Assembly: GCA_949948895.1 (NCBI GenBank)
Contig: CATLHE010000002.1
Span: forward strand, 62,001-126,000
From: an uncultured Christensenella sp.
GTDB lineage: Bacteria > Bacillota > Clostridia > Christensenellales > Pumilibacteraceae
DNA: 64,000 bases
Direction: 5' to 3'
Shown: positions 18,000 to 19,543 of the stretch, one piece after another
Numbering within the stretch: position 1 is the stretch's first letter
Layout of the letters: every line of letters starts with the position of its first letter
Made by a program: the position numbers and the translations under genes
Notes under the pieces: model-generated
Seen by the model: only the letters and a program-made list of their open reading frames with translations
The model's database searches: none
What the model was told of the DNA's origin: nothing

Positions 18000-18284
18000 G
18001 CTTGGCGTCTGTCGTGTGCCAACCAAATGTTGGACGATTGTCGTGTGTTTGCGTGGGAGATTGATTTTCACGTTTCACCCGAAAAAGAACGGACATGATT
18101 TTAACTTGTCATTCTGAGCCGCAGGCGAGGAATCTTTGGCGTAGCCGCAAAGCGTAAACGTTAAACCAATAGTTACCCATCCGTAGGGAGCGCAGACCAC
18201 TGCGCTCCGCAAACCAAATGTTTGACGGATGTCGTGTGTTTGCGTGGGATATTGATTTTGCGATACACCCGAATAATTACGTTA
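18000..18284. repeat. Dispersed intergenic repeats (families A and B)
   Basis: Two copies of a modular repeat (family A) occur at about 18000-18098 and 18181-18284: a GC hairpin or CCAAATGTTGG-type hairpin, then GTCGTGTGTTTGCGTGGG, then a short AT stretch and CACCCGAA. Between them lies a family-B element at about 18109-18145 (TTGTCATTCTGAGC, then GGAATCTTTGGCG). Matching copies of both occur at 61.2-61.75 kb. No ORF is credible here. Confidence 0.8.
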
Positions 18285-18371
18285 CAAAACACCTCGGTAC
18301 GCCGCTTTTGCGTGCTTAAAAAAACTGTATTTGATTGGCTCTGCTTTTTTTATCGGAAATTGTAAAAACTC

Positions 18372-18400
18372 TTTACTTTTATGATTGTGTTTGTTATAAT
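18372..18400 (+). promoter_or_regulatory. Promoter of the structured RNA
   Basis: TTTACT (18372-18377), a 17-bp spacer and TATAAT (18395-18400) put +1 at about 18407, the first base of the RNA's closing stem. Confidence 0.7.
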
Positions 18401-18406
18401 GAGCAT

Positions 18407-18595
18407 GCCAAACAAATCATTACAAGTAGTAGGGGGTCTCTTTTTTATTTTAATTTTTTCACCGATTGATTTTGTATTTGTCAAAAATGTAACTCTTTTC
18501 AATTGGTGAATGGGTAACCTTTACTATTTGTGATTTGTTTGGCGACAATCGGAGTTTGCGTTTTTGGTGCGTCGGCTTCGGTTGGCGCACTTTTT
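18407..18595 (+). ncRNA. Structured RNA candidate, 6S-like hairpin followed by a terminator
   Basis: The predicted +1 begins a 13-bp perfect stem, GCCAAACAAATCA (18407-18419) with TGATTTGTTTGGC (18531-18543). After a 3-nt bulge it continues with 9 bp, CAAGTAGTA with TACTATTTG (one G-U). A large internal bubble follows (18432-18457 against 18511-18521), then a 12-bp apical stem, TTCACCGATTGA with TCAATTGGTGAA (one G-U), and a small terminal hairpin. A terminator (GTGCG with CGCAC, then TTTTT) ends at 18595. One long hairpin with a central bubble recalls 6S RNA, but 137 nt is short. Alternatively it is a switching leader of the gene at 18625, because CCGATTG (18462-18468) could pair with CAATCGG (18546-18552). 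Confidence 0.6.
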
Positions 18596-18624
18596 ATTTG
18601 CAAAAAAACTAAAGGAGATTAATT

Positions 18625-19437
18625 ATGGATGAAATAATAAGACCGAACCCCGTCAGCGGGTATTTGGAATTGACGGTCGCCGATATAGGCAAGAAAGTTG
18701 CTTTCGGAACTCAAATATATGAGGACCCTGACATTGGGAAAGAAAGATTATGGGATACAGGATGTAAGCACGAAAAAAAAGACATGATTTGGCTAGTGCT
18801 TGACGTATTTGACGATGCGTTACGCGGTACGACAGCGTTACTGCTAAGCCAAACAAGTCCATACGAAAAAGATAACGGTGCTATGTCATATAATCGTAAA
18901 GATTACTATGAAATATTGGAAAACTTTTGGAAAAATTTTTGTGAAAAAGTTTTTTCGAGTGCCGAGCGAGAAATAATCCATTCCGAAGATCTATACTACC
19001 AATGCGGCACACTAAGCAAAGGTGATGTAGCACGCTATAAAGATTTGATATTTTCACGAAATAATATATACAATGGTGCATATAAGTGTTTGCGTTTGCT
19101 GATGTTTAATGATGTTTCTAGAATATACGGAGAAACAGTGTACGGTAGCGGATATGTCGAAAAAGAAGTAGATACAGGGTATTATCGTGGTGGTAATTGT
19201 ACTTGTTTTGGCATACAACATGCAATAAAAATTGCGTGCACAAAAGAGGGAAGAGAAAAACTAAAAGCATATCGTGAGAGAGTAATGCAGGATGCCATAG
19301 AGCATCGAAAGCGTGAAGAAGAGCGTAAGAATAAGCAAGCTCATTTGAGAAAGAAAGGGGTTTGTCAATACTGCGGCGGCAAATTCGGTTTGCTCAAAAA
19401 GGTTTGCAAAGACTGCGGTAGACGCAAGGATTATTGA
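18625..19437 (+). CDS. Unknown protein with a C-terminal zinc ribbon
   Basis: A 270-residue protein that I cannot assign. The N-terminal part has a pattern weakly like DUF6273 proteins (KVAFGTQ, then MIWLVLDVFDD, TTALLLSQ, then FWKNFCEKVFSSAEREII). The tail is a Lys/Glu/Arg helix (YRERVMQDAIEHRKREEERK) and a zinc ribbon (CQYCGGKFGLLKKVCKDCGR). The SD AAAGGAG lies 9 nt from the ATG and 29 nt after the terminator of the upstream RNA. Codon use is clearly more AT-rich than in neighbours and repeats flank the region, so recent acquisition is possible. Readthrough of the upstream terminator may control it. Confidence 0.7.
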   Translation: MDEIIRPNPVSGYLELTVADIGKKVAFGTQIYEDPDIGKERLWDTGCKHEKKDMIWLVLDVFDDALRGTTALLLSQTSPYEKDNGAMSYNRKDYYEILENFWKNFCEKVFSSAEREIIHSEDLYYQCGTLSKGDVARYKDLIFSRNNIYNGAYKCLRLLMFNDVSRIYGETVYGSGYVEKEVDTGYYRGGNCTCFGIQHAIKIACTKEGREKLKAYRERVMQDAIEHRKREEERKNKQAHLRKKGVCQYCGGKFGLLKKVCKDCGRRKDY

Positions 19438-19496: not shown

Positions 19497-19543
19497 CTGC
19501 GGCGGATCGCCTAGATCCTTCGGCTTCGCCTCAGGATGACAGG
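19497..19543. repeat. Family-B dispersed repeat
   Basis: GCGGCGGATCGCC, then GATCCTTCGGC, ending CTCAGGATGACA, is the same element in the opposite orientation to the copy at about 18109 and like those at 61.3-61.57 kb. Further sequence up to 19640 shows nothing recognisable. Confidence 0.75.

Follow-up and report, generated by a model that had tools for sequence, protein, structure and literature searches.

A predicted pseudoknotted, terminator-bearing RNA leader, apparently of an uncatalogued kind, that precedes patchily distributed genes of gut Clostridia and of a few phage sequences

Between a rubrerythrin gene and a flavodoxin-like gene, the window (by which we mean the whole 64,000-nucleotide stretch of an uncultured Christensenella sp. 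genome that was analysed) carries a promoter, a long hairpin and an intrinsic terminator directly ahead of an open reading frame. Does this arrangement specify a free regulatory RNA, or a leader that decides whether the adjacent gene is read? The first-pass annotation of the locus had entertained both, likening the hairpin to 6S RNA, suggesting two alternative folds and proposing, as another possibility, an attenuating leader. We argue here for a leader, albeit with a different set of competing pairings: the element looks, from its sequence, like a pseudoknot-controlled terminator riboswitch or attenuator. It seems to represent a type of RNA switch not yet catalogued, which in many gut bacteria, and in a small number of phage sequences, precedes many unrelated, patchily distributed genes.

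All features of the locus lie on the forward strand. A promoter of the sigma-70/sigma-A type (18372-18400), supported by its own letters and by homologues, has a -35 hexamer TTTACT (18372-18377) and a -10 hexamer TATAAT (18395-18400) separated by a 17-nt spacer; as had been proposed, it stands before the closing stem, and the first base of the RNA would probably be G18407, with 6 nt between it and the -10. The stem-loop domain (18407-18543) comprises P1, whose arms GCCAAACAAATCA (18407-18419) and TGATTTGTTTGGC (18531-18543) are exact complements, P2 above it, a one-sided internal loop, P3 and an apical hairpin. Taken with three further bases, it folds at -49.4 kcal/mol against a mean of -22.1 for shuffled sequences (z -8.69, with none of 200 shuffles equally good), and the outline first described, a 137-nt stem-loop with a large asymmetric bubble and a 12-bp apical stem, is present here and recurs in the homologues. 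The finer dimensions fared less well: the 13-nt arms are complementary as claimed, but in place of a 13+9-bp closing stem and a 26/11-nt bubble the predicted fold of the window copy has 12, 14 and 3 pairs beneath a 17/1-nt loop. Further downstream, and again as first read, lies a rho-independent terminator, GTGCGTCGGC-TTCG-GTTGGCGCAC (18567-18595), made up of a hairpin with a UUCG loop (18567-18590) and five T (18591-18595); 29 nt beyond its T-run, with AAAGGAG just upstream, begins a 270-amino-acid reading frame with a C-terminal CxxC...CxxC (18625-19437), which we take to be the regulated gene. Against Pfam, the product of this frame has no match at E up to 0.001, such matches as there were falling below the cut-off.

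The strands on which our reading turns lie between P1 and the end of the terminator. CAATCGGAG (18546-18554), the 5' strand of a putative antiterminator, pairs with CTTCGGTTG (18576-18584); 3' of it, the stretch GGAGTTTGCGTTTTT belongs to a 'hinge' (GAGTTTGCGTTTTTG, 18552-18566) predicted to pair with the apical-loop strand CAAAAATGTAACTC (18482-18495) in a long-range, pseudoknotted helix, L. In the window, the hinge shares 3 nt (18552-18554) with the antiterminator 5' strand, the rest of it falling within the loop and inner portion of the antiterminator hairpin.

A BLASTN search with 18340-18625 returned the locus itself, the 3' module at four more places in the source genome and some weak, short matches; at E up to 0.01, matches (some of them likewise short and weak) occurred in 43 of 101 relatives' genomes, the source genome included, and the 3' module was present in 33 of an initial set of 38 loci. 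Shared by the copies are the promoter, the closing stem, an apical motif near GAATTTGRTAAAAATGCAAATTCC, the hinge and the terminator, and most have a gene immediately downstream. A degenerate hinge pattern occurred in at least 117 contig stretches, those listed all being titled Clostridia, one of its families or genera, or Bacillota, and also in four viral contigs; a looser version, run over all loci, gave 149 instances, 143 of them distinct, a few incomplete or misplaced at the 5' end (e.g. L120, L036 and L139). Of the 143, 129 passed a filter that required 12 or more of the 13 P1 pairs, an initial GC and sufficient sequence upstream. Most hinge letters are set by the pattern itself, so that in the 143-copy set the conservation of the hinge is partly a matter of construction; the partner strands of the hinge were left free by the search.

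Divergent members were sought with R1, a covariance model of the 3' module, which in the source genome detected five full copies, along with a single match that was weak and partial. At E up to 1e-4 it gave a match in 72 of the 297 genomes sampled from the order, spanning 37 of 116 genera, with a best E below 1e-10 in 55 of these genomes and weaker or partial matches in the others. In a phylum-wide sample, three of 398 genomes were positive: the source genome, a carrier outside the order and within the same class (G713, seven matches), and one with a partial match. A 42-nt partial match (L167, from genome G385) was left out of the analysis. One carrier record is of a named strain, Pumilibacter intestinalis CLA-AA-M10 (L142); no match to the leader was found in plasmids, and a 47-nt match in Escherichia phage BrunoManser (E 1e-3, inside a terminase gene) was taken as chance. 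Two loci show tandem hinge matches, at 2323 and 2647 in L049 (324 nt apart) and at 2835 and 3179 in L139 (344 nt), a possible two-leader arrangement. The first-pass annotation had allowed that its reading would suffer if the element proved to be confined to this island of the genome, or if its homologues held no compensatory base changes; homologues were found in other genomes, and their changes are considered below.

Comparison of these copies strongly supports the structure, and with it a real family of RNA leaders. By statistics computed without a tree of the copies' relatedness, as are all covariation and swap values given here, P1, the apical hairpin and the terminator together are paired in 98.4% of cells across 41 sequences and hold 92 double-change cells against 24.5 after shuffling, a number beyond all 500 shuffles. 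P1 is 99.8% paired in this set, with double changes at six of 11 pairs, and the terminator, on 68 sequences, is paired in 98.2% of cells with double changes at five of 10; the apical hairpin has none in the 41 sequences, so that its pairing is compatible with the alignment and draws no further support from it. P2 and P3 are near-free in sequence and keep their pairing nonetheless (own versus swapped arms, z -29.7 and -44.5, 122 copies). The promoter, too, is largely constant in its layout: of 129 copies, 112 have a 17-nt spacer and 109 a -10 that ends 6 nt short of P1. Its hexamers differ from consensus at a mean of 2.6 in 12 positions versus 4.4 when shuffled.

The rod has a median of 27 bp below and 21 bp above its one-sided internal loop, itself a median of 32/2 nt (121 copies). 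A fold-back geometry with matched rod halves was considered and given up, as its prediction failed: the lengths of the two halves correlate negatively (rho -0.46, 121 copies), a correlation that may partly stem from the way in which our script splits the fold. On the 5' side of the internal loop, some copies (e.g. L026, L128 and L212) have a short hairpin followed by a T-run, which resembles a pause site or a weak, early terminator; under a strict pattern 30 of 143 copies have this feature, and none was seen in the window copy.

The antiterminator is paired in 97.9% of cells across 68 sequences, with 32 double-change cells against 9.1 (none of 500 shuffles reaching this), and in the 41-sequence set its 21 double-change cells, against 7.2, again lie beyond each of 500 shuffles. 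Helix L (18482-18495 with 18552-18566) is 97.4% paired in the 41 sequences, with 13 double-change cells against 4.2 (0/500). Counted by pair, both helices stay within the range of the shuffles, because few of their columns vary: this applies to double-change pairs and to further pair types, in the antiterminator (286 and 277 of 500 shuffles on 41 sequences; 135 and 195 on 68) and in L (100 and 49 of 500). The 3' letters of the terminator covary with the terminator 5' arm as well as with the antiterminator, so that one strand is held to two partners. Within L, the loop base beside the A-run and its hinge counterpart were scored in 113 of 139 copies, and in 99 of these they make a standard pair (A-U 56, G-C 34, U-G 6, C-G 2 and G-U 1).

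The mean duplex energy of L is -18.6 kcal/mol with its own apical strand and -6.5 with shuffled apical strands; among the 139 close copies, however, a copy's own strand is barely better than one swapped in from another (-18.58 versus -18.42 kcal/mol, equalled in 263 of 10,000 permutations). We also compared 24 hand-picked divergent copies scoring 29 to 84 bits, among which, for example, L172, L183 and L188 have quite different letters in both partner strands. In this set the antiterminator averages -12.0 with its own strands versus -8.4 when swapped (z -6.8; 22 of 24 better than the median swap), and L -15.8 versus -13.1 (z -5.3; 21 of 24), neither being matched in 20,000 permutations. The exceptions are L176, L178 and L180 for L, and two of the 24 for the antiterminator, which do no better than the median swap; P1 keeps 11 or 12 of its 12 positions paired in 23 copies, L180 again being the exception. 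Taken together, these comparisons establish P1, P2, P3, the antiterminator, the terminator and, with less variation, L as conserved pairings, in so far as alignments can do so.

The pairing first put forward for an alternative fold was another one, between CCGATTG in the apical stem and CAATCGG after the closing stem. It could form in the window, but the full 7-bp match is found in the hairpin of only seven of 143 copies, compared with 11 of 143 when the interiors are shuffled; the conserved partner of CAATCGG lies in the terminator, with which all seven positions pair in 125 of the 143. Covariation and the placement of the homologues support, in kind, the proposal of an attenuating leader for the gene at 18625; the alternative fold proposed for the RNA is the wrong one. 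The antiterminator and terminator that we would put in its place are balanced in mean predicted energy (-16.6 and -16.0 kcal/mol), and in 86 of 139 copies, that of the window among them, the tail is predicted to fold as the antiterminator.

We propose, with a probability that we would set at about 0.78, that the element is a transcription-attenuating leader with three competing pairings: L, the antiterminator and the terminator. As L and the antiterminator share a strand, and the antiterminator and the terminator share another, such a leader would constitute a three-state switch. Transcription would start at the first base of P1, and the P1-P2-P3 rod would form and present the conserved apical loop. 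In the 'OFF' state, the strand following P1 would pair with this loop (L, of up to about 15 bp), depriving the antiterminator of its 5' strand, such that the terminator forms and transcription halts ahead of the gene; in the 'ON' state, without L, the same strand would pair with the loop and 3' arm of the terminator, and polymerase would continue into the gene. The ratio between the two would then depend on a signal acting either to stabilise L or to block it. The copies have what is expected of a terminator-type attenuator or riboswitch, namely a covarying, competing terminator and antiterminator with a same-strand coding gene directly 3'; we further infer that the switch acts during transcription, that a signal exists and that the adjacent gene is the target.

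As to the sign of the switch, we lean towards L meaning OFF. In the opposite arrangement, L would 'kiss' the loop of the antiterminator hairpin and stabilise it, so that L would mean ON; the hinge does sit in the inner part and loop of that hairpin, and since L and the outer antiterminator strand overlap by only 3-4 nt, such an arrangement is conceivable. Against this, the aligned L also spans the GGAG of the outer antiterminator strand, which favours exclusion, and we think a positive sign rather unlikely. A further variant concerns the nature of the signal: a protein or a trans-acting RNA, in place of a small molecule, might bind the rod or its loop and tip the balance between L, antiterminator and terminator. 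The near-interchangeability in energy of apical strands and hinges across copies (-18.58 own, -18.42 swapped) speaks for this, as does a set of downstream genes that lacks a metabolic theme; on the other side, there is no need to invoke a NusG-type factor dedicated to the leader, as 18 of the 21 carriers chosen have a single NusG match, and we hold the variant to be possible, if doubtful. A dedicated NusG paralogue was rejected as a candidate, a second NusG match being present in just three of the 21. Cyclic di-GMP is an unlikely signal, because 11 of the 21, the source genome included, have no GGDEF match (10 have one), and no ligand is suggested by the set of downstream genes.

Could the terminated transcript itself be the product, sited by happenstance before genes? 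Promoter and strong terminator do delimit a discrete RNA, about 185-189 nt long, but a conserved antiterminator would be useless to such a molecule, and the placement of the copies relative to genes is close. In 135 of the 143 distinct copies a start codon could be scored (five being too near a contig end and three without an ORF); chosen by script, it lies a median of 26 nt past the T-run, at 40 nt or less in 95, although more than 60 nt away in 33. Moreover, some kinds of gene, judged by eye from the starts of their proteins, recur behind diverged leaders: EcoRI-like adenine methylases, recognised from shared sequence, in L030, L151, L185 and the phage record L212 (PF13651 being matched by one of 126 downstream proteins), 'LRAxxSLxA' proteins in L004, L011, L184 and L190, and 'RFRKSxxxG' proteins in L010, L037 and L181. 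Such recurrence would be difficult to account for if the leader did not serve the gene, and we regard a free-standing small RNA as improbable. Still further down the scale is a 6S-type RNA, despite the similar outline of a long rod with an open centre. 6S RNA binds the sigma-70 holoenzyme and templates a product RNA. The source genome encodes a canonical 6S on another contig (RF00013, 61.3 bits, E 7.1e-12, G000:C17:24829-25026, corresponding to L001 1501-1698), and the covariance search with the Rfam 6S family that had been suggested at the outset yields no RF00013 row at the window copy (18000-18700) at E up to 10. The leader differs from 6S also in its one-sided internal loop and in its position, with each of the five full copies in the genome standing ahead of a gene; pseudoknot, antiterminator and adjacent start codon are not known as features of 6S. 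Ribosome-mediated attenuation through a leader peptide we consider just as implausible: copies from the window's own family do have AGGAG-like stretches in their internal loop, but short ORFs with a Shine-Dalgarno-like stretch are found in 49 of 131 leaders versus 62 of 131 shuffled once (19 versus 19 with ATG only).

How, then, does a transcription-attenuating leader of this build compare with RNAs already catalogued? The window leader matches no Rfam 15 family at gathering score, and at E up to 10 the only rows to touch it are mir-8250, mir-3613 and rliA, all far below gathering; no Rfam row covers the leader in any of 10 homologue loci (E up to 5) or of 20 divergent ones (E up to 2). T-box leaders (RF00230), likewise terminator/antiterminator leaders of Bacillota, gave no match at permissive thresholds in the window leader or in these 10 and 20 loci, and the genes behind our leader, unlike theirs, have no amino-acid theme. 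In the put RNA, EAR and LoaP-type systems of processive antitermination a leader RNA influences termination, often before surface-type genes, as the present one could; it differs in having its own terminator and competing antiterminator, and in the single NusG match of 18 of 21 carriers. Fluoride and preQ1 riboswitches are of the terminator type with a pseudoknotted sensor. The leader shares with them (for fluoride see PMC11077080, in part) a pseudoknotted RNA, competing folds and an intrinsic terminator directly upstream of a gene, and departs from them in its lack of an Rfam match, its much larger rod, the conservation in sequence of both terminator and antiterminator, and genes without a metabolic link. 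A literature search that took in part of PMC8040213 found no description of the leader RNA; an earlier, unnamed prediction among the supplementary candidates of that paper is possible. What we describe is a well-supported family of putatively regulatory RNA without an Rfam 15 match, in gut Clostridia and at least two phage sequences.

The leader seems to control strain-variable genes and no metabolic pathway. Among 126 downstream proteins searched with Pfam, LRR_5 was matched by 16 and Zn_Ribbon_1 by six, while 40 of the 56 matched families occur once; a simple lipobox pattern is present behind 32 of 135 leaders, as a raw count. A defence theme was rejected, as 23 PADLOC models each matched one of the 126. 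The signal, once known, would tell when these bacteria and their phages turn on surface lipoproteins, leucine-rich-repeat proteins and methylases.

L158, the one of the four viral contigs in which phage genes were examined, encodes terminase subunits and a primase and carries a leader copy before a lipoprotein-like gene; L212, an unverified and unannotated phage record from human faeces, has a copy before its EcoRI-like methylase. In the source genus, the flavodoxin-like neighbour is present in all 20 genomes searched, and in seven of the 19 others a rubrerythrin gene lies 161-520 nt upstream of it; these seven intervals hold no match to the frame at 18625 and, by eye, no leader, so that the unit was either gained here or lost in those seven. 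In the remaining 12, rubrerythrin was not found within the flank examined, and these are uninformative.

We also entertain, as a long shot, a self-recognising regulatory network carried on mobile genes, in which resident, terminated leaders act in trans on newly acquired copies; terminated leaders could so act because nearly any apical loop can pair with the hinge of any copy. Were this the case, copy number, not a metabolite, would set the expression of horizontally acquired and phage cargo genes, and the fast-changing arms of P2 and P3 would limit recombination between copies.

Finally, repeats are visible by eye around the unit. Inverted copies of a sequence like TGTCATTCTGAG... flank leader and gene, at 18107-18136 and about 19513-19541, and hint that the unit was gained through recombination between repeats. 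A second sequence that looks like a repeat, CCAAATGTTnGACGnnTGTCGTGTG...CACCCGAA, is seen at two places upstream of the leader (about 18025-18095 and 18210-18280) and once more near the 6S gene (L001, about 2100-2160).
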